Part shown: positions 49,684-64,000 of the stretch, piece after piece | Position numbering within the stretch: position 1 is the first letter of the stretch | How the letters are laid out: every line of letters starts with the position of its first letter | Source of the DNA: Paenibacillus azoreducens | GTDB taxonomy: Bacteria > Bacillota > Bacilli > Paenibacillales > Paenibacillaceae | Assembly (NCBI RefSeq): GCF_021654775.1 | Contig: NZ_AP025343.1 | Span: forward strand, 1,889,501 to 1,953,500 | Direction of reading: 5' to 3' | Length of the DNA stretch: 64,000 nucleotides | Program-made: the position numbers and the translations under genes | The notes under the pieces: generated by a model | Seen by the model: only the letters and a program-made list of their open reading frames with translations | Database searches by the model: none | What the model was told of the DNA's origin: nothing

Positions 49684-50473
49684 GAAATCAAACACTTCGC
49701 GCCGTATAGTACTTGCGTCGACCTCACCCAGAAGGCAGGAACTGATTGCTTCTCTACATATACCGTATGAGATTCATCCAAGTCATGTAGATGAACATAC
49801 TCCTAAGGAGTGGTCTCCTGAACATATTGTAGAAGAGCTTTCGCTTCGCAAAGCGCAGGCTGTATATGCCGAGATTGCTGATCCAGGGGAGGATGCTGTC
49901 GTTGTCGGCAGCGATACCATCGTTGTCCTGGGGGATGAGGTACTTGGCAAACCTGCGGATGATGAAGACGCCTTTCGGATGCTGAAATCATTACAGGGCA
50001 GAACCCATCAGGTATACACGGGGATCGCCTGTATCGATGCGGCAAACGGACAAACGCAGGTTCGCCACCGCATGACCCTGGTCACGATGAAAGAACTATC
50101 GGATGCCCAGATTAAGGCTTATATCAAGAGCGGCGAGCCGAGCGACAAGGCAGGGGACTACGACACCACAATGCACCTTGGAGACATTGGTCAGTATCGT
50201 GTATTATCTCAGTCGCCAAGCGGACAGCCAGAGGTAATTGTGGGACATACTGTCAGTAAAGTAACGTTTAGACCTATGAGTGACGCGGAAATCGAAGCTT
50301 ATGTAAAAACTGGTGAGCCACTCGATAAGGCAGGAAGTTACGGGGCACAGGGGTTGGGCGCTGTTTTTATTGAAAAAATTGAGGGTGATTTTTTCAGTAT
50401 AATGGGGCTACCCTTAAACCTGTTGTACCAAATGCTCCTGAAATTTGGTATTAGTCCATTTCAAGAAAAATAG
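49684..50473 (+). CDS. maf: Maf-family nucleotide pyrophosphatase with duplicated C-terminal module
   Basis: 263 residues from a TTG behind AAGGAG, about 70 longer than the family norm. Residues 1-155 are a normal Maf N-part (ASTSPRRQELI, GSDTIVVLGDEVLGKP, GRTHQVYTG). The module ELSDAQIKAYIKSGEPSDKAGDY (about 130-160, written here only to show the repeat in part: SDAQIKAYIKSGEPSDKAG) then recurs as SDAEIEAYVKTGEPLDKAGS, followed by the only complete GAQGLG...GDFFSIMGLPL ending. The two DKAG sites are 180 bp apart in frame. Read as the scar of an element integrating in maf. Confidence 0.85.
50144..50154 (+). other. Candidate attachment core, copy 1
   Basis: GACAAGGCAGG, inside the first DKAG block of maf. 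Shares GAYAAGGCAGG with 50324-50334. Proposed recombination core; inferred, no integrase is present to support it. Confidence 0.35.
50324..50334 (+). other. Candidate attachment core, copy 2
   Basis: GATAAGGCAGG, inside the second DKAG block of maf, 180 bp after the first. From here on the DNA no longer matches the usual maf-radC-mreB order. Confidence 0.35.
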
Positions 50474-50484
50474 AGTTTTTCTAA

Positions 50485-50515
50485 CGGAAGGTGCTAAAAT
50501 TTTTAGCACCTTTTT
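50485..50515 (+). terminator. Terminator of maf
   Basis: AAGGTGCTAAAA/TTTTTAGCACCTT stem followed by TTT; bidirectional in appearance. Hairpins with the same GGTG/CACC core end two other genes in this block (62559, 62991). Confidence 0.8.
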
Positions 50516-50796
50516 CGTGGTATTCGACCTTATATACTTGGGTTTCATCTGAAGGACAAAATGTTAGCACATTTAAAAAGCTAAAGGAGAAATCCATAAG
50601 CTGTGTTTTATTTTGTAGAGAATTTGAAATTCGGATTTGGATACACTTGTACGATTTAAACAAGTACGCTAGAATACACAACAACTTTACAATACTTATA
50701 TTTTATGGCGTGGGGGTTGGTCGACCACGAAATGCGACCTTATGTTGAAACTGAACTAACGCGTTTAAGAGAACATCAGAAGGACGGTGATTTCCA
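50516..50796. other. Spacer at the left end of the element
   Basis: AT-rich, no convincing gene. A 22-codon frame (50732-50800, MRPYVETELTRLREHQKDGD...) ends at ATGA, overlapping the start of the next gene; it may be a coupling mini-cistron or a decayed fragment, and has no ribosome site. Confidence 0.4.
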
Positions 50797-51207
50797 ATGA
50801 AGCTCGAGCTAAAAGAAAAGTTGTTCACTCGCTTCCCTTGGTCGATACCAGACAAATCTGACACCATGAGTCCTTGGACACAATATACTTTTGAATGTGG
50901 GGACGGCTGGTATCAAATCCTCTGGGACATGTTCACTGAAATAGAAGAAGTCTATAAAAATAATGGAATCAAGATCAAACTAACTGTTGGGCAAATCAAA
51001 CAAAAATTCGGAGAGTTGAGAGTTTATATTCACGATGCACTTCCCGAAGTCAATGAACTGATAGTTAAGTATCAAGAGATTTCGGTAAAGATATGCGAGG
51101 GATGTGGTATTGAGAGTAGCATTCAGCGGAGAGTGCATTACTGGACAACATTATGCGATGACTGTTACGATAAGCGGATTGAAGAAGCAAGAGTAGGATT
51201 AGGGTGA
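50797..51207 (+). CDS. Small zinc-ribbon protein of a phage/plasmid-type family
   Basis: 136 residues. CGDGWYQILWDMF, then IKQKFGELRVY, and a C-terminal four-cysteine site CEGCG ... LCDDCYD (about 107-128). This order (GDGW, KFG.LR, CE.CG, LCD) recalls a widespread family of unknown function in phages and mobile elements. A diverged paralogue without the cysteines is encoded at 62673. Confidence 0.7.
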   Translation: MKLELKEKLFTRFPWSIPDKSDTMSPWTQYTFECGDGWYQILWDMFTEIEEVYKNNGIKIKLTVGQIKQKFGELRVYIHDALPEVNELIVKYQEISVKICEGCGIESSIQRRVHYWTTLCDDCYDKRIEEARVGLG

Positions 51208-51328
51208 ATGTCTAATATTATAGGTATTTTCGATGGCTTTTTACCATCCTTCGAAAGTGGGTAACGTTAATAAAGATCTGCAGAATGTATCGAGGAATTC
51301 GTAGGGTGACTCCCTTCTACATCACTGG

Positions 51329-51369
51329 CAAGGCTTCACACTAAGTGTGGGGCTTTGCTTTTTTTTTAT
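51329..51369 (+). terminator. Terminator
   Basis: GCAAGGCTTCACAC-TAA-GTGTGGGGCTTTGC stem with mismatches, then eight T. Ends the zinc-ribbon gene transcript. Confidence 0.75.
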
Positions 51370-51453
51370 TTAAGGTTTTTCTTTTCAAATCGACCTCATT
51401 CAAGCTAATGTATTAAAAACGATAACCGGACGTAATTTGGAGGAATGAGAATT

Positions 51454-51894
51454 GTGACAAATATTACGGGCTACTGGAGCCAAGGAGAAATCATTTATAC
51501 ACATATGGAGGAAGAGGGTATCGCTTTCTTTCCTAAAGGAACAGGATTATTAATTTGGTTCAACCCTTATGTAGAAATAATTGATACATTTCACTGGAGG
51601 CATCAGAATGAGAGAGTTTCACTTTTAGGCAAAAAGCAAATTACCTTTCGAGATGATGATCTTTCTGAGATCAAACCTTCTGATCTTAGTGTCGCTGACA
51701 TTTTAATGAATATGGTCAAACGTAAGTCAATCAATAGCGGAACTGTAAAGGCACTTGAATTCCTAGAGCCAATAGGGTATTCATCTGAAAGTCGATTTGG
51801 TTTTATATGCAGGGATATATGGGGTATGGATCATTACAAAAGAAAGCAAGAAGTAATAATGAAATATGGTGAACTCCAGAAAAGTGAAAATTGA
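51454..51894 (+). CDS. Unknown protein
   Basis: 146 residues from GTG 51454, ten bases behind GGAGG; the ATG at 51445 is too close to that site. Soluble, no motif I recognise; the aromatic N-terminal half (GYWSQGEIIYTHMEEEGIAF) suggests a beta-sheet domain. Has its own promoter-length upstream gap and its own terminator, like a cargo gene. Confidence 0.6.
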   Translation: MTNITGYWSQGEIIYTHMEEEGIAFFPKGTGLLIWFNPYVEIIDTFHWRHQNERVSLLGKKQITFRDDDLSEIKPSDLSVADILMNMVKRKSINSGTVKALEFLEPIGYSSESRFGFICRDIWGMDHYKRKQEVIMKYGELQKSEN

Positions 51895-51901
51895 AATACA
51901 C

Positions 51902-51943
51902 AATCAAGGCAGCTTAAATCCTCAAGCTGTCTTGATTTTTTTT
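51902..51943 (+). terminator. Terminator
   Basis: AATCAAGGCAGCTT ... AAGCTGTCTTGATT stem followed by a T tract. Confidence 0.85.
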
Positions 51944-52094
51944 GCACTTAACATACTGCGAGTGATTATTTCTTCAAAAAGAATTTTTAGGGACATGAAA
52001 ATTCTCGATACTTCAACACCTGAAAGTCAACCAAAAACATATTAAGTAAGAACAATTTTTAAACAATGCAAACTAAAAGAACGGAGGGATACAG

Positions 52095-55000
52095 TTGAGT
52101 GAACCAGAATGGATCGAGGAGTATCTTATGGACATGGATGATGAAGATGCCGCCGCGCCTACCGAGATAAGCTTGAACGCTCTAGCGGCAATGGCACAGG
52201 ACTTTGCAACTCTAACTGGACTTGATTCAAGTCAATTGCGACACCTTCTAATGGAAAGGGCATTACTGCCACTAGCCTTGAAGAAAGATTTGAACAACGA
52301 TATAATCCTTTCTTTCAGCAATGAAGATGGCAAGTACAAAGCATTGGTATGTGAGCTATATCCGACTTTGGCTAAGTTAGTGGACAATGTAGATCATTCA
52401 AAGAATCGTCCATATTTACAGGAGCTTCTTACAGTTGCAATGTCATTAGTTGTTTGGAACGCAATCGAGAATAAAGTAAAGGCGAAGTCAATCGATACGA
52501 AGCAGTTTCAAGGAGTTACCCAACAAGTTTGTGACTCTACGGTTTATTTTGAAAACGAAGTCTTTCCGATCACCGACTTTGTAAGATCAGTTGCAGTAGA
52601 GCGCCGCTCCGTAGAGAAGGGTGATTTTGAAGTCATTTCAGATTTGCTTGGGGTATTGAAAGCCTTGAACACTGTCGGAACAGGAAACTCATCGGTTGTT
52701 TCTGAAATAGCCACTGAGCCAACACAGGATAAGCAAACCTATATCAAAGAGCTTGCGGCAAAAGGTTTCTTCCCAAAAGATAATAAGACGTCAGTAGCCG
52801 GGAAGACGGGTATTCATGACACTCTGATTGGCTTAATCAAGCTGTTCTATTCTGAGTCACCAGTAAGTAGTCTTGGCTTCAAGGATAAAGTGTACATGGT
52901 CAATCAATCCCTTTTGGAGTCCAAAGGAGTTAATCCAAAAGGAGTCGATATCTGGAACGCAGCAACGTACACTCTGGACGAAGATTTGATGTTCCGAGTA
53001 TTCATCAAAGAAGACGATATTTCATTTACAGTTCTGATAAAGCTACCAGTAGGAGTCACCAATTTTGATTTCTCGAGAAAGTCCAGCGAATTGGACGCTA
53101 TCCCGTTATTATTCAGCAACATGAATCCTTCAGCGGGAACCGTCTACTCCAGTTCCTTAATGAAACAACCGAGAGTCTGTAACTTAGGCTCAACGAGGAA
53201 AGTTACGGCAGCCTACGATTGTATCGAAATGGTTTTATCCAAGGACTTACTGGCATTCCGAAACGCAAATTGGTCTTTGCGGGATTACATTAGAGCTTGT
53301 CAGGGCGAACAGAACGCCTTTGCTTCATTCGATGATTTGTCTTTAGGTGAGAAGATCGTTGTCGGCGTCATGCCAGGAGCTTTGAAAGCCGAACGATTTG
53401 ACTGTTCAGGAAAATACAATGTGAGCGGTATTGTAGGTGGAGGAGCCGGTTCAGGTAAGACCGCAATGTATGACAGCTTATTGGTGCAATCAGTTGCCTT
53501 ACAGGGGGTTGAAGGTAACGGCGCTGTGGTTTTGATCGACCAAAAGGAAGAATGGGTTCCGATTTGGAGGAAGGTGTTTAACAGCTTAGGAGTACCGTTT
53601 TACGGTTTTGATGGAGAAGTCCTTAACTCTGCAGAATTGAAATGGGGCGACATCAAGCGAGGGGAAAGAGTAGTCGAGAATATTCCCTTTAAGGTCAATG
53701 CTTATATCGGGGGTATCCTTTTTGCCAGAGTGGTTTATCAAACGATTCAGGTTATTCTCAAGGAGACAGGCTGTTCTGACATTATCGAGTTTAATAAAGG
53801 CAATCACAATTACAAGGGAATCACAAGGCTTCCGCGCATCTTCTTTTTGGTCGATGAGCTGAATTCTCTTTATGCAAGCATCAAAGGTGATCCTGCAATT
53901 CCGCAGAGTGTTTACAAAGGATTGATTTTAGCAAGGTTGACCAGAACAAGCGGCTTCCACTGGTTATTAGGTGGTCAAGATCCGAGTAAGACGCTAATCG
54001 CCAGTGATGAGCGAAGCAACTATAACTACAATATCTTCGGCAAGATGGCAGACGAGCGCTATGAGTATTTCGGGGTCACTCAGAATCAAGCGGTTCAAGG
54101 CTATGAGAAGAAGCATGGTACCCTCGATAATCCGAGTCCAATCCTGAGCCAGGGGGTATTTTACGCGGGACCGAAAGGGAAAACGGATTTGGTTAAGAGT
54201 TTGTTTGTTTCGAAGGATGAACGTCTGGACGCAATCAGAGACTTAAATTCTTCACTTAGCGGCATGCAAGAATTGGACAAAATCGTAAGATTAGCTTTAG
54301 CTGAAGGTTATTTTGATGCATTTGAAGTTACATTAGGTAAGCCCAATAACATTGTGTATGTAACCCTTCGTAATTTAGGGGTTATCTCACAAAAGGAATT
54401 TGAATATTACACCGAACGTGTATTGAGCGGAAATAACAATGACACATCGGACGTACTTGATGATGCATTGAATGTGTATGAAGCCGATTTTGTTAAAAAG
54501 AGCCCAACCACGTCCAACGTAGTTGAGCAGAATCGCCCACTCGAGAAAACATATAGTAGGACGATTTTACCCGAAAGACGAGAAGAACCAGACAACGTCT
54601 TGCAATCGAAGAATGCTCGACGTGTAAATCTTAATCCCGTAGTCCATGACCCATACATCCCACCAAGAGAACAAAATGCTTTTTCAGCAACATATGATGC
54701 TCAGATTGATCCCGAGGTAAATCCATTTGAAGTATTCAAAGTTGAGAATCGGGAGAACCTCAATCCGATCTCATCTATGACGGCATTCAGAATGATGTCG
54801 GATATGCTTATGAAGCAGATTAAGCAAATGGTTGGAGATTTGAAAAGGATTGAAAGCTTTGAAGTCACTGGTAATGGTCTTATCATCAACGATGTTGCAT
54901 TTAGACCGAGGTTCTCACAAGAAGTATTGAAATCTATGCCTTATGCAATAAGAGTTCAAGTTGAGAAGGGAAATGTCGTAGAGCTATTCCATTTCAAAAA

Positions 55001-55589
55001 CATCTTTAGGTTCAAAAATTTAGTTTGTCTTCGAATTGATAATGCCCGGCTTGCAGAGGGTCGTGTGAGACGCGAAATTGGTTGGAGTCAGAGAAAGTCA
55101 TGGTTCAAGCTATTCGATCGTTTCCGTTATCTCAGTGAGCTGTATATCGGTGGAGAGTTAATTGCAGATGAGGAGACGGCTAAGGAGTATGACAATCGTG
55201 GTCGCGGCGGATTCACGTTAACGGAAAAGTTGAGAAATGCATTCGGTCTTGGGGTAAATGTGGTTTCGTCCTCTCACATGGAACGTGTTTGGGATTCAAA
55301 GCCGGTAAGAGTCATGGGAAGTGCGGTAGGATGGACACTAGCCTTTAAAGGGGTAACGTTGGCAGCGAGTTTACTCGGTCCTTGGGGGATCGTTTTCGCA
55401 GGTCTTGCAGGTTATAAAGCCTATCAGGAACTAAGAAATCGCCAAGGACATAAACAAACTCAAGTACCAAAACACCTTCAAGGGAAAATGCCAATTCAAC
55501 AACAAAGGCAAAGTCAGTGGCAATGGCAACAGCAACAGCAAACTCAGGACCCAAGATATCGCCAAGGGACAAAGCGAACTAGACGCTGA
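52095..55589 (+). CDS. FtsK/TcpA-like DNA-translocase ATPase of the element
   Basis: 1164 residues from TTG behind GGAGG. Walker A GGGAGSGKT near residues 447-455, VVLIDQKEEW just after, Walker B RIFFLVDELNSLY near 582, and the FtsK-like LTRTSGFHWLLGGQDPSK near 615. The 440 residues before and 400 after are unfamiliar. Near the C-terminus a hydrophobic stretch WTLAFKGVTLAASLLGPWGI (about 1078-1110) is followed by a Gln/Arg-rich tail. Probably the coupling protein or main motor of conjugative transfer; a translocase with another role is possible. Confidence 0.72.
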   Translation: MSEPEWIEEYLMDMDDEDAAAPTEISLNALAAMAQDFATLTGLDSSQLRHLLMERALLPLALKKDLNNDIILSFSNEDGKYKALVCELYPTLAKLVDNVDHSKNRPYLQELLTVAMSLVVWNAIENKVKAKSIDTKQFQGVTQQVCDSTVYFENEVFPITDFVRSVAVERRSVEKGDFEVISDLLGVLKALNTVGTGNSSVVSEIATEPTQDKQTYIKELAAKGFFPKDNKTSVAGKTGIHDTLIGLIKLFYSESPVSSLGFKDKVYMVNQSLLESKGVNPKGVDIWNAATYTLDEDLMFRVFIKEDDISFTVLIKLPVGVTNFDFSRKSSELDAIPLLFSNMNPSAGTVYSSSLMKQPRVCNLGSTRKVTAAYDCIEMVLSKDLLAFRNANWSLRDYIRACQGEQNAFASFDDLSLGEKIVVGVMPGALKAERFDCSGKYNVSGIVGGGAGSGKTAMYDSLLVQSVALQGVEGNGAVVLIDQKEEWVPIWRKVFNSLGVPFYGFDGEVLNSAELKWGDIKRGERVVENIPFKVNAYIGGILFARVVYQTIQVILKETGCSDIIEFNKGNHNYKGITRLPRIFFLVDELNSLYASIKGDPAIPQSVYKGLILARLTRTSGFHWLLGGQDPSKTLIASDERSNYNYNIFGKMADERYEYFGVTQNQAVQGYEKKHGTLDNPSPILSQGVFYAGPKGKTDLVKSLFVSKDERLDAIRDLNSSLSGMQELDKIVRLALAEGYFDAFEVTLGKPNNIVYVTLRNLGVISQKEFEYYTERVLSGNNNDTSDVLDDALNVYEADFVKKSPTTSNVVEQNRPLEKTYSRTILPERREEPDNVLQSKNARRVNLNPVVHDPYIPPREQNAFSATYDAQIDPEVNPFEVFKVENRENLNPISSMTAFRMMSDMLMKQIKQMVGDLKRIESFEVTGNGLIINDVAFRPRFSQEVLKSMPYAIRVQVEKGNVVELFHFKNIFRFKNLVCLRIDNARLAEGRVRREIGWSQRKSWFKLFDRFRYLSELYIGGELIADEETAKEYDNRGRGGFTLTEKLRNAFGLGVNVVSSSHMERVWDSKPVRVMGSAVGWTLAFKGVTLAASLLGPWGIVFAGLAGYKAYQELRNRQGHKQTQVPKHLQGKMPIQQQRQSQWQWQQQQQTQDPRYRQGTKRTRR

Positions 55590-55765
55590 CCTTGAACTGG
55601 CAGTATGACCTTGTCGAATAAAATTGACTTAGCTAATCGGTACATGAGCTTATGGATGATTGTTCAATTTATGCTATTGAAAATTCACTGAATTTCAGGA
55701 CAAGTTCTCCAAGCAAATTTATAGTACATGTAAAGGAAAAACCAAACGTAAAGGAGGAACGACCA

Positions 55766-57355
55766 ATGCCACCTTATGTAAATGAGGATACCAAGATCTA
55801 CTCATCGACCGTATACACTAAGGGCAGCTCTAAACGGACTTTCAGTTTTGTCATCAAAGGTATGATAATAAGCGCAGCATTTCTTGCTGGTATAGCTTCA
55901 GGGGGGATTTCGGCTCTTGCAGCACCGACTCCCTCCATCCCTCCAACCATCGCCGCGCAACAAGTCCAAGTCAATTTCGAAGATGAGGCGACATTAATAG
56001 CCAATCTCAACATGGCGGTTAAAGCGATTAAGGAAGAGGGATGGACGATAGAGAGATTGACCAAGATCATGGATCAATTAACCTTGATTGAGGACAGGTT
56101 ATTTGAAGGGAATATTTTCAAGGGCAAAGGGAAGTTGAGAAGCCCTCTGAAAACTGCTCTTGCCGAAACTGAAAAAGTGTTTACGGCTCATGGAGCTGAT
56201 GGATTGTCTACCCTTCGCGAGAATGATGCTCCTGAAAGATTGTATCGAATGCAGGAAATGCTTGGAATGAAGTCCAACCGGAATAATGTTAATTTAGCGC
56301 CAGTTGGTCAAAAGAACGAGGTAAAGATCGCTTCAACAGTCAAGGACGAGGTAACAGTCTACATCGATGGTGTTAAGCAAAACTTCCCGCAGTCAGCAAT
56401 CGTAAAGAATGGAAATACTCTTGTTCCCTTGAGAGGGGTATTTGAAGCGTTAAAAGCGGAAGTAAAATGGGATCAGCCAACTCAAACAGCTACAGCAACT
56501 AAAGGAAACACGACCATTAAACTCACGATTGGGCAATCAACAGCTTATGTTAATGGTAAAGCAGTACAACTGTCAGCTAAAGGTGAAGTCATTAATGGAG
56601 CGACAATGGTTCCACTTCGCTTTGTTAGCGAAGCCCTTGGGGGAGAAGTTAAATGGGACTCGAAAACAATGACAGCTTATATTGAAAGTGCAAAAGCATC
56701 TGATTCGGGTAAGCAACAGGCAGTTGACGGTATTTCTGTAAAGCACGGTAAACACACATACGCTAGTCGAAACCAGAGTGAGTACGATCAAGTAATGAAA
56801 ATTGTTGAGAATGCGATAAAAGGTTATGACGAATCTGGTTTTGGAGGTGTATATCAGAAGTACTATTACGAATACCTCGATGGAGCTAGATGGTCAGGCG
56901 ATAAATCGGATCGATCCGACCGAAATCGTGGCTTGTATGCTGCAGAGAATTCAATTGGCGATTTAATAAAGGCTGGAGTCAGTAAAGAAGAGATCGTAAA
57001 GGTCGACACAATAGCTTCGATAGCCTATGACTTATTACGAGGGGTACCAGACCCTAAAGATGGCTCTCCGAGATCCGCTTACGACGCCCTTGCACGTTCC
57101 CCTCGCATGACAGATTGCGATTCTGACAGTCAGGTGTTTTCAGCAGTATTTGACGCGATGGGCTATAACACGATGATTGGCTCCAGTCCAAATCATGCTC
57201 AGGTGTACGTTGAGATAGACGGTAATTGGTATTCAATCATATCTGGCTCGTTTTCTAACGCAGGAACTAGTACTGATATTTCAAAATTCCTGAAAGAAAA
57301 CCCAGATAGGGGAATCCATACTCAGCCGACTTTCGGAGCTGTGATAAGCAGATAA
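55766..57355 (+). CDS. Secreted stalk-domain protein with transglutaminase-like fold
   Basis: 529 residues; ATG 55766 has AAAGGAGG and opens a signal sequence (FSFVIKGMIISAAFLAGIAS, then ALAAP). Residues 190-310 hold two copper-amine-oxidase-N-type repeats (LVPLRGVFEALKAEVKWD; MVPLRFVSEALGGEVKWD), a fold common in Paenibacillus surface proteins. The C-terminal 190 residues look like a transglutaminase core: Cys in MTDCDSDSQVF, His in NHAQVYVEIDGNWY, with the Asp following. May cut or cross-link wall or surface proteins. Between the ATPase and the giant secreted protein. Confidence 0.7.
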   Translation: MPPYVNEDTKIYSSTVYTKGSSKRTFSFVIKGMIISAAFLAGIASGGISALAAPTPSIPPTIAAQQVQVNFEDEATLIANLNMAVKAIKEEGWTIERLTKIMDQLTLIEDRLFEGNIFKGKGKLRSPLKTALAETEKVFTAHGADGLSTLRENDAPERLYRMQEMLGMKSNRNNVNLAPVGQKNEVKIASTVKDEVTVYIDGVKQNFPQSAIVKNGNTLVPLRGVFEALKAEVKWDQPTQTATATKGNTTIKLTIGQSTAYVNGKAVQLSAKGEVINGATMVPLRFVSEALGGEVKWDSKTMTAYIESAKASDSGKQQAVDGISVKHGKHTYASRNQSEYDQVMKIVENAIKGYDESGFGGVYQKYYYEYLDGARWSGDKSDRSDRNRGLYAAENSIGDLIKAGVSKEEIVKVDTIASIAYDLLRGVPDPKDGSPRSAYDALARSPRMTDCDSDSQVFSAVFDAMGYNTMIGSSPNHAQVYVEIDGNWYSIISGSFSNAGTSTDISKFLKENPDRGIHTQPTFGAVISR

Positions 57356-57370
57356 TAAGATCAGTATGAG

Positions 57371-57402
57371 GCGATGTCATCCACGACATCGTCTTTTTAA
57401 TT
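57371..57402 (+). terminator. Terminator of the transglutaminase-like gene
   Basis: CGATGTC-ATCCAC-GACATCG stem and TTTTT. Confidence 0.85.
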
Positions 57403-57533
57403 TTGTGAAGATTTTTCAAGACCTAAGCCCAATTTCAAGAGTTGGCGGGACATCTAACTTATAGATACAAGCAAAAGACTGTCATCCAAAACAGTTGAGC
57501 AAAACAAGAACAGCAAAAGGGAGGAAATGAAGG

Positions 57534-60500
57534 ATGAGAAGGATAGTTTCCAGCATGTTAGTCCTCGCCTTGCTTCTTTCGTTATTCGCGGCTTCAGCCT
57601 TTGCGAGTGAAGTTGAGCCTAACGAAGTTGTCCAGAGCGAAATTGGAACAGAAGGAGGAACACAGTCCGAAGCGGTCAATTCAGTCAATGAAGCCACCCT
57701 GACCGAAGAAGTGACCGATGATTTATCCAGTCAGTCCATTCAACCCAATGAGACCGCACAACCCGAAGAGACTATAACGAAAGTCTCTGCCGACAACACA
57801 TCTCTAACAGTAACAGATGGTCTGCACGTTGTAGTTTATTACGATTCTGATCAAGGTACCTACATCCCCGAGTTCAATTTGGAATTATGGAATGTAGCCG
57901 AAGACAAATTGATTAGCAGCGCTGTAGGCAACAGCCAGAACTTCAGTAACGGCAAGTATAGCCTGATTTTCAATCACCCAGGCTACAAGCTTGGCGACCA
58001 GTTTGCTCTAATCCTAAGAAGTGCAGACGGTATCATCGAAGAGGTCAATTTCAATGGATACAGCTTGAAGGTAAACACCCACTTCAAATTCGGCATAGAG
58101 CCATTCGTTTATTATGAAGGGGTAAATGACGAGAAGGTTTTCCAATACCTGACCGCCACGAAGCTTAACCCCATCGAGGCTTCGCTTAAGACCAACGGGA
58201 AAAAGATTGGACTGCAGCTCCAATCCGAATCAGGTTCCCCTTTGAAGCAGTTACCAATCAACATCAAGCTTTTGGAGGGCAAAGGAACCTTAACCGCCAA
58301 GTCAGATGACAGTGGTATGGTATGGCTCGACAGCAACAAGCTAACTTGGAAATTCCTCGTTTCATCGGAAGGTAAGGTCGCCAAGGACGGTTCAAATGGC
58401 AAAGCCGAAATCGAGCTTCCTGCTACAGTTATAGCCAACACGCAGAAGAGCGTCCTGACTTTCCCGATCATATTTGAAAATCAGGTAACCAGCGGCACTA
58501 TGAAGGTAAACTTCACGACCGATGCCAATACAGACCTGAGTAAAGCATGGTCAGAATTCGATATTGCTCTTTCCGATCCGAATGGGGTATCCAGTACTTT
58601 CTCTGCGAATCTGGACACTACGGAGATCGAAGGCATCGCAGACGGCAAATACAAGGCATCGATCACATCCAAGTATGCCGAGGTCAAGTTCAATTCCGAT
58701 GCCCTTGTTACCCTGAGTGATGGTAAAGGGGGCATCGGGGGCATCGTTAAGCCGAAGCATCTCCTCGAAATTAGTAAGGACGGCAAATCATTCAACTTCT
58801 CTGTCATCAACGTTGAGAAGGTTGCGGACAAGCAATACAAAGGCACTAATCCAATCTCATTCGCGGTAACGCCGGGAGAATCGTTTATGATTAAGGATAA
58901 CGATACAGGTAAAGTAGAGACAGTAGCCATCGACGCCAACTCCCCGATCACTAGAGTCGTTTTAGGCGCAGGAGTCGTATTTGGTGGTTCGGCAAGCACA
59001 CCCCATACAGGTGATGACATTGTCTATTTAGTAATTGGTTTTATCCTGTCATTGAGTGTAGCGGCAGGATGCTTTGTTCTCTACAACAGAAAGCGTAAAA
59101 AATCGTCACCTAAGATTTCGGCATTGAGTATTATGCTGGCGGTCGCATTGGTAGCTCCGCTTTTTGCTCCTTCGGGGGTTCACGCAGCTTCTTCGGATGC
59201 AAACGTGGGAGGTACTCCACCTGCATCGGGCGGTGCTAATTCATCAACTGCGGCAGGTACGTTCCAAACCTCCGAGCGGATCGCCGTATTGCAGTTTGGT
59301 TTTATCCCGAACAAGGTAAAATCGGATGGTAAGGGGGTTCTGAATCCCGACTCGAAGAAGGCTGATCTCGAAGATCCGTTCAAGTTCAATTATGAAGACC
59401 TGTTGTTCTACATGGCTCCAAGCAAGACTTCGGACAACTTATTCCGTAAAGCTGGCTCAGGCTTAATCACCTTTGAGCGAGGAACTGGAGTATCGACTCT
59501 TTACGGAAACAACCCACTCTATCCAGCCAGCCCTAAAGGTCAGAGCCATGCCGAGTTGATGAAGCGTACTTTGGATTACGCCGACAAAGCCATAGCCAAA
59601 TCGAGCAACATCAACTACTTCGAGCAAATCATTGCCGATACGCTGTACAATATCGCTCCGAGCGATTCGAACCGTACTCTTTCCGGTGAAGGTAACGTGA
59701 AGGTGATTGGTGATTCCTTGAAAGGGATGATCGAAGCCTACATTCTCCGTCACGGTAGCCAAGATGCAGGAGAGCAGTTCGATGCCCAAGTTATTGGCAG
59801 TCTGATGTTCTCGGGGTATCTGGACTTGATCAAGTCAAAAGGAATCTTGAAAGGCGAGGACTACATCACTTTCGAACAAATGATGCGTGACAAGTTCAAC
59901 AAGAATGAACTGATCTTCTTCGCCCAAACAGTTATCGGTATCTCGGTCAAGGATAGTCGTAGTGCATATGATCGTGACTATGCCTTTATCTCGATGCACG
60001 ATGCAACGGACTGGTATCTCTGGACAAGACAAAAGGCTCGTCCGACCGATTCCGTTCTGCAGGGGTTAACAGCAAATCGAGAATTTGAAGCTGTCTCGAA
60101 AGGTGGAGCTACCTCTGCCGAGCAAGGTTCCCAATCTCCATACAAGGAGAACGGCAACCTCCCGAATACGTTCAGAACATATGCCCGAGACTTCTACGCC
60201 AGAACGTTGAAGCCAGTAAGTTCGGCAATCCCGATGTCATCGGACGCTTCGGTCAATGGATTCGGCGGTTGGGGTTATCAACCTTGGGGTTACGGAGACG
60301 GAGAAGCTGCGAAAAAGCCTGCAATTACAGCTGAGTTGAACGTAACGTTAGTTGACAAAAACGGTAACCCGACAAAAGAATCATTCACGGTTCCAGTCAA
60401 TGGATGGTCAGAAGAAAGCCAGAAGTATTTGGGTGATTTGAAGTCAGCAAGCGATGTATTCATCGCAGGGGGTATGTCTGTAGGGCATAACGGCAAGACC

Positions 60501-62546
60501 TACGACATTCTTCCAGACGAAAGAGCCAAATTTGAACTTATTGATATGAAGGACAAAGAAAATCTCAATAAGCGTCATCTTACGAAAGGAGCAACTGGAG
60601 AAGAAGGGACAATTTCCATTCCTACATCTGGTTCAGACCTTTGGGAAATTGAGCTTGGGTGGGATACTCCGCTTCCGATGGATCTGCATAAGTATTTAGG
60701 TGGAGATGACCCTGCGAACAGTTCTGTAACGGAGAACAAATATAACGGTTCAGATGCTTATTCAAATGCCAAGCTTACTTTGTTCGTGAAAGCTAATGAG
60801 GACTCAATTGAGCCAATCGCTTCGAACTACGATGTTCCTCAATGGAGACTTTCGAAGTATTGGGATAACATCTCAGATAAAGGCATCAACAAAGCGAAGT
60901 TCAATTTGTCTTTACCGATCAGCACGTTCACGAACCCTAAACTTAGTCCTTCTGGAAACACATTGTTCAGCTTAGTTGATCCAGACTTGAGTAATACACC
61001 TTGGGCATTAAGCCGAGCCAAACTGTTTAATGATACACCAACCAAAAACATCTCGGTATACAATCCTTCTGCATCGTTCAATCTAGCTGGCGATCTGTTA
61101 GCTGTTCGAGATAACAATTCGGTAGCGAATATCAAACTGGCTTCATGGTTGAACAATTTCAGTTTATTTGATGGAAGGATCGCTTCAGCAAGTACAGGCG
61201 CAGCTGAGAATAAGCCAGTTGTATCGAAGTCACATGATTTTAAATATGGGGTAAAAAGCCCTTATTCCTCCTATACGTACAGCGAGACGAGATACAATTG
61301 GGTTTCAACGCAGTATGGTGGTTATTATGTTCCATATACTTGGTCGGGGTCGGCAACACCGTCGTATCTGACGGCAGACTATGAAACAAGCATCCGCTTT
61401 AACCGTTACATTCCGAAAGATAGCTCGGCTCCAAAAGCGATTGCCGATGCTTCCGATTCAGCTAACGGTATGCTCTGGCAAGCCAAACAAGGCAAAGAAA
61501 CCTTAAAAGTGAATCCAGAGGTTCTATACGCCTACGATGATGCGTCAGGAAACACAAGTGTTGCCTTCGCCGCGGGCGACAAGCTGAGAGAAATTCGTCC
61601 AGTGAGCTACAATCTGGCTCAATTCGTTAATGTTGGGGTCAAGCCAGAAGTAGTCGGCGCAAGTACGGCGACCGATGCAAATGCAAAAGCCCTAGCGAAG
61701 AATCTGAACGCTGGAGGTAAGCAGGTCATCTATAAGGGGTCAGCGATAACCACGAACTTTGAAGTGACGGGCGAATTGGAGTTGAAGACCTTTGCTCTCG
61801 ACATCGGTTCTTCCGCACTTAAGAAAGCTTGGAATCCATCCTCGGCTTATAGTACGGATGCCATCAATGAAACATACTTGAGCGAGTATGCAACCAAGGA
61901 TGAGGCTACTGGTAGGTGGCAAGTAACCTTCGATGCGAATGGTAAACTGGTCATCGACAATAAGGAGCATGGTGGTCAATCTGCCAAGCTGACAGCAACA
62001 GAGTCGAGTAAAGCTATCAAGGAACACACATTGGAAGTGCGCGGCGGCAAATTGGTTGGGGTTGATGGCAATCGAAACTTAGACAGCCTTCCGCAAGAAT
62101 TGAAGGACGCTCTCACTCGGATGCATATTCTCGGTAACGATAACATCTTCAGTTCCTTCGAGAGCGGCAACGGTGATAAGCTTACTGAGCAAGCTGTTGC
62201 AACCCTCGGTAATGCAGTGAGGGGTTCGAATGATTTGAAAGTTGGTTCTGGATGGTATGCAGAAGATACGACTACCTTGGTCATTCGTGTCTATACAACA
62301 ACCTTCGAATTGCCGAGCCATATGTATGTCGACAAAATACCGATGGAGATTCCAGGGCTTGAGGTGTCTGGCGACAAGAATCAATTCTTCAGCAAGGGCT
62401 TCACTGGGCATACGAAGCTGAGCTACAAAGTTGGTCATGTCGGCATGGTGTTCGACAGCTCCAAGGGCGACTTCGGCGGTAAACGGTCGACAGACTTCAT
62501 AGTGGGTAACACTTCGATAATGGACACGTTCAGTACAGTTCAATAA
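57534..62546 (+). CDS. Giant secreted protein with an internal sorting signal and a second signal peptide
   Basis: 1670 residues in one unbroken frame; AAGGGAGG ribosome site. Residues 1-24 are a signal peptide (VLALLLSLFAASAFA). Residues 75-485 are beta-rich, Ig-like. Residues 489-525 form TPHTG, a membrane span (IVYLVIGFILSLSVAAGCFVL) and RKRKK, the layout of a sortase signal though with T in place of L. At once a second signal-like segment follows (ISALSIMLAVALVAPLFA, cut expected after VHA at about 551). Then come about 1,120 residues of unknown secreted protein, with GFGGWGYQPWGYGDGE near 905. Not recognised as a known family. Confidence 0.75.
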   Translation: MRRIVSSMLVLALLLSLFAASAFASEVEPNEVVQSEIGTEGGTQSEAVNSVNEATLTEEVTDDLSSQSIQPNETAQPEETITKVSADNTSLTVTDGLHVVVYYDSDQGTYIPEFNLELWNVAEDKLISSAVGNSQNFSNGKYSLIFNHPGYKLGDQFALILRSADGIIEEVNFNGYSLKVNTHFKFGIEPFVYYEGVNDEKVFQYLTATKLNPIEASLKTNGKKIGLQLQSESGSPLKQLPINIKLLEGKGTLTAKSDDSGMVWLDSNKLTWKFLVSSEGKVAKDGSNGKAEIELPATVIANTQKSVLTFPIIFENQVTSGTMKVNFTTDANTDLSKAWSEFDIALSDPNGVSSTFSANLDTTEIEGIADGKYKASITSKYAEVKFNSDALVTLSDGKGGIGGIVKPKHLLEISKDGKSFNFSVINVEKVADKQYKGTNPISFAVTPGESFMIKDNDTGKVETVAIDANSPITRVVLGAGVVFGGSASTPHTGDDIVYLVIGFILSLSVAAGCFVLYNRKRKKSSPKISALSIMLAVALVAPLFAPSGVHAASSDANVGGTPPASGGANSSTAAGTFQTSERIAVLQFGFIPNKVKSDGKGVLNPDSKKADLEDPFKFNYEDLLFYMAPSKTSDNLFRKAGSGLITFERGTGVSTLYGNNPLYPASPKGQSHAELMKRTLDYADKAIAKSSNINYFEQIIADTLYNIAPSDSNRTLSGEGNVKVIGDSLKGMIEAYILRHGSQDAGEQFDAQVIGSLMFSGYLDLIKSKGILKGEDYITFEQMMRDKFNKNELIFFAQTVIGISVKDSRSAYDRDYAFISMHDATDWYLWTRQKARPTDSVLQGLTANREFEAVSKGGATSAEQGSQSPYKENGNLPNTFRTYARDFYARTLKPVSSAIPMSSDASVNGFGGWGYQPWGYGDGEAAKKPAITAELNVTLVDKNGNPTKESFTVPVNGWSEESQKYLGDLKSASDVFIAGGMSVGHNGKTYDILPDERAKFELIDMKDKENLNKRHLTKGATGEEGTISIPTSGSDLWEIELGWDTPLPMDLHKYLGGDDPANSSVTENKYNGSDAYSNAKLTLFVKANEDSIEPIASNYDVPQWRLSKYWDNISDKGINKAKFNLSLPISTFTNPKLSPSGNTLFSLVDPDLSNTPWALSRAKLFNDTPTKNISVYNPSASFNLAGDLLAVRDNNSVANIKLASWLNNFSLFDGRIASASTGAAENKPVVSKSHDFKYGVKSPYSSYTYSETRYNWVSTQYGGYYVPYTWSGSATPSYLTADYETSIRFNRYIPKDSSAPKAIADASDSANGMLWQAKQGKETLKVNPEVLYAYDDASGNTSVAFAAGDKLREIRPVSYNLAQFVNVGVKPEVVGASTATDANAKALAKNLNAGGKQVIYKGSAITTNFEVTGELELKTFALDIGSSALKKAWNPSSAYSTDAINETYLSEYATKDEATGRWQVTFDANGKLVIDNKEHGGQSAKLTATESSKAIKEHTLEVRGGKLVGVDGNRNLDSLPQELKDALTRMHILGNDNIFSSFESGNGDKLTEQAVATLGNAVRGSNDLKVGSGWYAEDTTTLVIRVYTTTFELPSHMYVDKIPMEIPGLEVSGDKNQFFSKGFTGHTKLSYKVGHVGMVFDSSKGDFGGKRSTDFIVGNTSIMDTFSTVQ

Positions 62547-62558
62547 AGCTCTACCTTA

Positions 62559-62591
62559 ATGGGAGGTGTCGAGAAATTGGCACCTTCTTTA
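62559..62591 (+). terminator. Terminator of the giant gene
   Basis: GGAGGTGTC ... GGCACCTTC hairpin followed by a T-rich tract. Confidence 0.6.
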
Positions 62592-62672
62592 TATTTGGGG
62601 TTCAATTCACCTTCGTTTCAAGTTATAGTAGATACATTTATTTTCCTACCATTCTTGAAATGAGGTGATGTT

Positions 62673-62987
62673 ATGGCTAAATTATCCGAGTTGTCGTTGT
62701 ATGCCAGATTCAAGTGGGCGGTTCCGGTTGTTCCCACGGTTAAAAAGGATGAGGGGTTCTTCAGTGATCCGAAGCCTTGGGATTTTGAGGAGCTAGTACT
62801 GGAGCTGATTGAACAGATGTTTGTTGAAATCGAGGAGTTCTTTTCTAAGAAGAACATGCCAGTAGAAGTGGCAATTTACGAAATCAGGGAAGTCTTCGAC
62901 CGGCTCCATGTCGAGATGTACAGTCCACATCAGGAAGTCTATATGATCGTGGAGAAGTACAAGAAGCTATCTGAAAACCTATTTTAA
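62673..62987 (+). CDS. Small unknown protein, cysteine-free paralogue of the zinc-ribbon protein
   Basis: 104 residues, GAGGTGATG ribosome site. LYARFKWAVP and MFVEIEEFF ... IREVFDRLHVEMY ... IVEKYKKLSENLF align with LFTRFPWSIP, MFTEIEEVY, IKQKFGELRVYIH and IVKYQEISVKI of the protein at 50797. The GDGW motif and the C-terminal zinc site are missing; the chain stops where the ribbon would begin. Confidence 0.65.
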   Translation: MAKLSELSLYARFKWAVPVVPTVKKDEGFFSDPKPWDFEELVLELIEQMFVEIEEFFSKKNMPVEVAIYEIREVFDRLHVEMYSPHQEVYMIVEKYKKLSENLF

Positions 62988-62990
62988 CTT

Positions 62991-63027
62991 AGTGGAAGGT
63001 GTCGTGAAAATCGGCACTTTCTTTTTA
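62991..63027 (+). terminator. Terminator
   Basis: AAGGTGTCG ... CGGCACTTT stem followed by CTTTTT. Confidence 0.6.
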
Positions 63028-63297
63028 TGGGACGATTATTTTATAAACGCTCGATTGTTTAGTTCGATTTTAATGGGGTTCCTGTAGAAGATTATTACTA
63101 ATCGTTTCAAGCAGGATAAGGTTCCTTTGATTCCCCGCCATCCCTCCAACCTTTGAATGGGATTCGCACAACTATTATTTACAAGCATTTGTATGGAGTT
63201 GGGACGACAAGGGGCTTACATAACTTAACTTCAACACATGATTCAAGAGTCAACAGCTTCTAAGTGATTCAAAATAAATCACTTGGAGGTAAGCGGT

Positions 63298-64000
63298 ATG
63301 AATGAGAAAGATTCGTCGGTTTCAAATGAGGTTCAGAGCATTGATGAAAAGATTGAAGAGTTCAAAGGGAGTGCCGCCAAGGAAGCGGATTTCATTTGGG
63401 GCGTAGATGTATTTTATGGGTGGCAGTCAGCATCCGGTCGTGAAAAGAATGTAGTAGAAGTCACCTGTAAGCTGGACGGTCAAAAGTTCTATTATCTACT
63501 CGAAGACCTGCGAGACATCAAGCAGACGGATCTGGTAATAAAAAGCCTTGGCTCAATTGCACTCATCAAGCGTAGCTACGTTAAGCACTTTGTCGATGTT
63601 GCTGACGGAATGATCATGGAAAAGAAGCAGAAATTGATGGACTGTATCGATGTGTATGTTCCATTTGACTTGGGGTCATTGAATGCCCTGCAGCATTATC
63701 GACTTGTTTATCGGCACTTTCAGGAAAACCAGGAGAAGTTCCCTTCAAAGATCAGCAACACCTTCAATTCGGAGGAACATGAAGGAGCAATCCTTGATGT
63801 AGAGTACCCTGTCGACAAAGAAGGCGTTCTGACAATTGCGTTTTTGCGCGAAGACTTTAGGAGTCTGTTCAGCGTAAAGAATGACAATGAGTACAATCAA
63901 ATTCTTGATGCTCTGCACACTCTTGGGGTTCTGATTCCGAATTCAGGAAAAAAGAACAAGAAGAAATCCGAAGCTTTTACGTTCGAACGTGCTTTGGCAA
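63298..64000 (+). CDS. Unknown protein, runs off the window
   Basis: Open from an ATG with a clear GGAGG nine bases upstream to the window end (234 codons, no stop). Soluble, charged; N-terminus MNEKDSSVSNEVQSIDEKIE, later FIWGVDVFYGWQSASGREK and a lysine run near residue 220. I do not recognise it. The 270 bp before it hold no other gene. Confidence 0.7.
   Translation, partial: MNEKDSSVSNEVQSIDEKIEEFKGSAAKEADFIWGVDVFYGWQSASGREKNVVEVTCKLDGQKFYYLLEDLRDIKQTDLVIKSLGSIALIKRSYVKHFVDVADGMIMEKKQKLMDCIDVYVPFDLGSLNALQHYRLVYRHFQENQEKFPSKISNTFNSEEHEGAILDVEYPVDKEGVLTIAFLREDFRSLFSVKNDNEYNQILDALHTLGVLIPNSGKKNKKKSEAFTFERALA

Follow-up and report, generated by a model that had tools for sequence, protein, structure and literature searches.

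Sorting signals are described as C-terminal features of the proteins that bear them. Two proteins can come from a single frame, as in the Bradyrhizobium cytochrome b/c1 precursor, whose internal signal peptide is where signal peptidase separates the two. C. difficile SrtB uses SPKTG, a PxTG motif without leucine, for wall attachment, and sortase leaves the C. difficile proteins bearing SPSTG and SPQTG unprocessed, according to the part of that report drawn on here (PMC5569036). In the excerpted account of LtaS, the SpsB signal peptidase cuts internally, between the spans and the outer domain, and releases the large outer domain (PMC11898559). Here, we describe a gene of Paenibacillus azoreducens in which a sorting signal and a second predicted signal peptide lie next to each other inside one frame.

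The window analyzed is a 64,000-nucleotide stretch of the P. azoreducens genome, and its positions 57534-62546 on the forward strand translate as a single open frame of 1670 residues with an ATG start and GGGAGG upstream. The frame opens with a predicted Sec signal peptide (57534-57605, +, residues 1-24), recognized by hydropathy only as a hydrophobic stretch at residues 4-22 followed by AFA, with cleavage predicted between AFA and S. The N half that follows (57606-58997, +, residues 25-488) is predicted to be exported and is a multi-domain stalk, all-beta in the structure model and resembling wall-anchored stalks. It ends in the order typical of a sorting signal: the motif TPHTGD (58998-59015, +, residues 489-494), a membrane span (59016-59087, +, residues 495-518; hydropathy 2.39; a helix in the structure model), and the basic tail RKRKK (59088-59102, +, residues 519-523), which the positive-inside rule would place inside the cell. 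An internal signal peptide comes next (59103-59186, +, residues 524-551, with VHA at 549-551), beginning where the separate genes of split relatives begin, and the remainder of the frame is the C half (59187-62543, +, residues 552-1670), predicted to be exported and lacking a membrane span. In a 19-residue hydropathy window, the only strongly hydrophobic stretches of the protein are 4-22, 496-514, and 528-546 (2.34, 2.39, and 2.18); outside them, the maximum is 1.25 in the N half and 0.93 in the C half. The first-pass annotation had placed TPHTG, the span, RKRKK, and a VHA ending at 551 at exactly these residues, and translation and hydropathy bear it out.

Conservation was assessed by several searches. 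The first protein search returned 36 relatives, giving with the window protein 37 rows: 28 fused, five C halves with a signal-peptide-like start, two proteins starting in the span, one fragment (P0031), and one distant standalone C half (P0037). The five C halves belong to the close family (P0021, P0023, P0024, P0025, and P0028), and their signal-peptide-like start falls at the same place. A search with the N half only found 12 standalone N halves, of which 11 are complete, and all 11 end in PHTG, a span, a basic tail, and a stop. A search from P0037 gave 97 rows, made up of 77 more of the P0037 kind (P0050-P0126), seven new fused proteins, P0129 (which starts in the span), P0135, the query P0037, and 10 rows found by the earlier searches, and thus the fused total is 35 (28 from the first search and seven from this one). 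P0033, P0034, and P0129, C-half proteins that begin within the membrane span, were excluded from the counts; given that start, their N half must end further upstream or in a different frame. We call the 77 rows clostridial-type, a label that rests on two named members, an Anaerovoracaceae MAG and Sinanaerobacter. By eye, a signal-peptide-like stretch opens nearly all of them, a few seem truncated at one end or the other, and no printed PxTG match in the 77 rows precedes a span and basic tail. In seven of these C-half relatives (P0109, P0111, P0114, P0120, P0121, P0123, and P0124), the last 35 residues are identical from a conserved RGG site onward, as if the same intron-like insertion had gone into the gene at a single site.

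At the genome level, six of 200 relatives and 11 of 392 members of the order (the window's genome counted) gave a match; the G371 match, counted among the 11, is only a 48-residue fragment containing stops. Seven genomes (G000, G012, G038, G178, G239, G251, and G329) have an open frame across the junction, and the pair is split in four (G041, G049, G295, and G311). The fused gene of Gordonibacillus kamchatkensis (G178, L003:7929-12605) has a frame break late in its C half.

The layout of the junction is conserved. All 35 full-length fused rows carry P-x-T-G-D, a span (hydropathy 1.9 to 2.9), and then a second hydrophobic core with [AVT]-x-A, joined by a linker whose net charge is +4 to +6; in these 35 rows, as in the window protein, the sorting signal is internal and not C-terminal. 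Among the fused rows of the first search, identity to the window protein falls as low as 29%. The N-half alignment of 37 rows has 17 invariant columns, three of which are the P, T, and G of the motif. The first motif position in the fused rows is T, S, I, N, R, A, or V, never L, and P0017 and P0019 carry SPKTG and SPQTG. For the second signal, we tested 31 fused rows, the 35 minus the near-copies P0002, P0004, P0005, and P0133. An [AVT]-x-A lies 5-15 residues past the second hydrophobic core in 31 of the 31, against a mean of 19.5 and a maximum of 28 in 5000 within-row shuffles, and past the first span in only four. At the putative cleavage site, position -1 is A in every row and -3 is V in 16, A in 14, and T in one, counts that are partly so by construction because whoever placed the sites did so manually and knew the pattern, the shuffles and the first-span count serving as controls. 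Position -2 holds ten kinds of residue, and 19 of the 31 rows have P at -6. The C half is thus preceded by an n-h-c signal peptide with small residues at -3 and -1, at which cleavage is predicted, and the second hydrophobic stretch with its [AVT]-x-A has, as far as sequence can tell, the pattern of a used signal-peptidase site.

The same pair exists as two genes. In G041, G049, G295, and G311, the N half ends in PHTG, a span, a basic tail, and a stop, and an overlapping C-half gene starts with a signal peptide, the overlap being 13, 13, 11, and 11 nt, respectively. A scan finds a Shine-Dalgarno sequence with a start within the basic-tail codons at three of the four split loci; at the fourth, G295, the scan reports none and a purine-rich, Shine-Dalgarno-like stretch is visible by eye in those codons. 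At seven distinct fused loci (the window, humicus, turicensis, G038, G012, G251, and Gordonibacillus), the junction holds no Shine-Dalgarno sequence with a start. Small linker changes separate the split from the fused forms. The first-pass annotation had proposed that each half be searched separately to see whether other elements encode them as adjacent genes; they are indeed two overlapping genes in the four genomes, and standalone N and C halves also occur in further records. Its reading of a wall-anchored protein joined to a second exported one therefore holds for the layout and for the existence of two separable proteins.

The history of the link is not a single event. On a C-half tree (29 rows, six split), the split state needs three changes and on an N-half tree (33 rows, 11 split) it needs four; a single change suffices in 0% of 200 bootstrap trees for either half, and the AU test against a single split clade gives p values of 3e-117 (C half) and 1e-4 (N half). 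A single origin of the split state is rejected on both counts, and the trees scatter that state among fused relatives at three or four points. In a broader tree that takes in 12 clostridial-type rows, fused proteins are the deepest of those with an N half, on long branches of unsure placement. Repeated fission of a fused ancestor would be the simplest reading; we infer the direction, because the outgroup, the clostridial-type relatives seen, lacks the N half.

The surroundings of the gene look mobile. Identity to G239 and G329 rises from ~71-80% to 95-98% at window positions 50144-50147, which fall in the 3' part of maf, and records of P. humicus and P. turicensis have the same left junction. 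The block in common with G239 reaches its right end at ~126.3 kb on the window's scale; from 126.9 kb onward, identity is 72%. A large serine recombinase (L060:9210-11177; Pfam Recombinase, E 3.8e-24) is followed by radC and mreB; the high-identity block with G239 stops ~0.4 kb short of it, identity inside the recombinase is 72%, and the recombinase likely belongs to the element. The identity steps at both ends place the fused gene in what, by sequence comparison, is an integrative element between maf and radC. Its size is ~76-78 kb, with 76 kb as the minimum and 78.5 kb if the recombinase is included, and its left part (50144-64000) runs past the window toward the recombinase and radC. Besides a D5/DUF5906 protein, the element encodes an FtsK/TcpA-like ATPase (52095-55589, +) with a weak match to TcpA (6o1w; E 0.003, residues 554-660) and a match to the PHROG FtsK/SpoIIIE-like family (E 3.5e-4). 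No relaxase model was matched in the 25 element ORFs scanned with Pfam. A further element protein of 1726 residues (L014:13171-18351) has a signal-peptide-like start, hydrophobic stretches, and no Pfam match, and is possibly a channel part of the transfer machinery.

Directly upstream of the fused gene lies a secreted-looking protein (55652-57355, +) with a Pfam match to Cu_amine_oxidN1 and a C-terminal Cys/His motif that we take to be transglutaminase-like. Its homologue stands upstream of the pair, fused or split, at 10 of 10 loci, at a spacing of 66-176 nt in eight and with another ORF intervening in two (L003 and L021), and the Cys and His of the motif are retained in all nine intact relatives. 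The upstream protein may act on the fused or split pair. The upstream gene and the fused gene of G012 are separated by an ORF (L007, 1-1209 on the reverse strand) identified by eye as a reverse transcriptase of the group-II-intron type.

Taken together, we favor a bacterial secreted polyprotein as the probable reading: a chain cut by signal peptidase after residue 551 and by sortase within TPHTG to give a wall-linked stalk and a released partner. Signal peptide 1 would route the N half outward via Sec until the span after TPHTGD halts transfer, with RKRKK remaining cytoplasmic. The next hydrophobic stretch would re-enter the translocon, behaving there like any signal peptide, and export the C half, which host signal peptidase I would release by cleaving after VHA-551. 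Host sortase would afterwards cleave between the T and G of TPHTG and attach the N half to the wall. Each round of translation would then yield one wall-linked stalk and one released partner, probably acting together. A fuller account, in which belief and doubt are for us about evenly matched, makes this a true secreted polyprotein of a mobile element of Gram-positive bacteria, matured by the host's signal peptidase and sortase, that delivers stalk and partner in equal yields at the same translocon and has repeatedly been split into two overlapping genes, the basic-tail codons of the first also serving as the ribosome-binding site of the second.

Three other explanations have to be weighed against the cut precursor. 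That the fusion is an artefact, whether from a lost stop, a sequencing frameshift, or a decaying gene, draws on the smallness of the linker differences between split and fused forms, yet the fused frame recurs in seven genomes and 35 rows, down to 29% identity where measured, with the junction signals intact. At the family level, this refutes the artefact, to which we attach practically no credence; the first-pass annotation's own caveat, a stop lost to sequencing error, falls likewise, because seven genomes keep the frame uninterrupted across the junction. An uncut chain, in which a two-span membrane hairpin displays both large domains outside, is permitted by topology and would agree with the fused state being the commoner one (28 of 37 rows, the window counted). 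We nevertheless regard it as quite improbable: [AVT]-x-A is retained in 31 of 31 rows, the link is dispensable on trees that call for three or four changes, and distant C-half relatives resemble, by eye, ordinary secreted proteins. Hence, of the two outcomes that the first-pass annotation had left side by side, the precursor with its predicted cuts fits better and the uncut hairpin worse, given a signal-peptidase site that persists amid variable neighbors and a link that was repeatedly broken or made.

A less remote but still unlikely alternative accepts the signal-peptidase cut and release of the C half and holds that the N half is no sortase substrate, staying in the membrane by a two-helix hairpin. 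The anchor model TIGR01167 (LPXTG_anchor) scores 10.3 bits for the full protein and 13.3 for the N half, both below its cut-off of 15.9, and across the 37 rows it matches 10 at E up to 1 (best 7e-4), while Pfam Gram_pos_anchor matches one of 37 (E 0.009). A sortase is found in all six genomes with a match among the 200 relatives, which is weak evidence because 161 of the 200 genomes have one, and no sortase lies within the element by the Pfam model. That the motif's first position is never L, that the window genome's only sortase by the same model lies outside the element and adjoins an LPKTGE protein, and that, in the part of the C. difficile report drawn on, the SPSTG and SPQTG proteins go unprocessed (PMC5569036) would all suit an N half that escapes sortase. 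Against it stand the invariance of P, T, and G in 37 rows while the following span varies, and the 11 complete standalone N halves, all of which end in classic sorting signals. We expect, then, that the polyprotein with both cuts is the better description.

The fused layout combines two well-known processing signals in a new way and is not a new kind of signal, and it is widely conserved in the family; within the portion of the open-licence PMC literature consulted, no description of it was found. If the reading is true, an internal sorting signal with a working signal peptide behind it would mean that a longer precursor can contain a sortase substrate as one of its parts and, therefore, that surveys of C termini only would miss them. 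The naturally fused and split versions would also make a clean system in which to study the benefit of exporting two proteins as one chain.

Among known systems, LPXTG-type wall proteins are alike in the whole of the N half, with its signal peptide, beta stalk, PxTGD, span, and basic tail; they differ in that the signal of the fused form is internal and followed by a second exported protein, and in that the first motif position here is not L. The cytochrome b/c1 precursor shares the logic of one frame and two proteins, but its products are respiratory membrane proteins and no sortase is involved, unlike the fused protein here. The C. difficile SrtB substrates have the leucine-less PxTG in common with it, whereas their signals, in the part of the source drawn on, are C-terminal (PMC5569036). 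LtaS, as the excerpt presents it, carries neither a sorting signal nor a second exported protein, and its cut inactivates or regulates an enzyme (PMC11898559). Finally, the TIE adhesin of the pLS20 conjugation operon, which in the sections of its report used here has no sorting signal and is sortase-independent and unfused, is likewise a beta-rich surface protein carried on a mobile element (PMC8092201).
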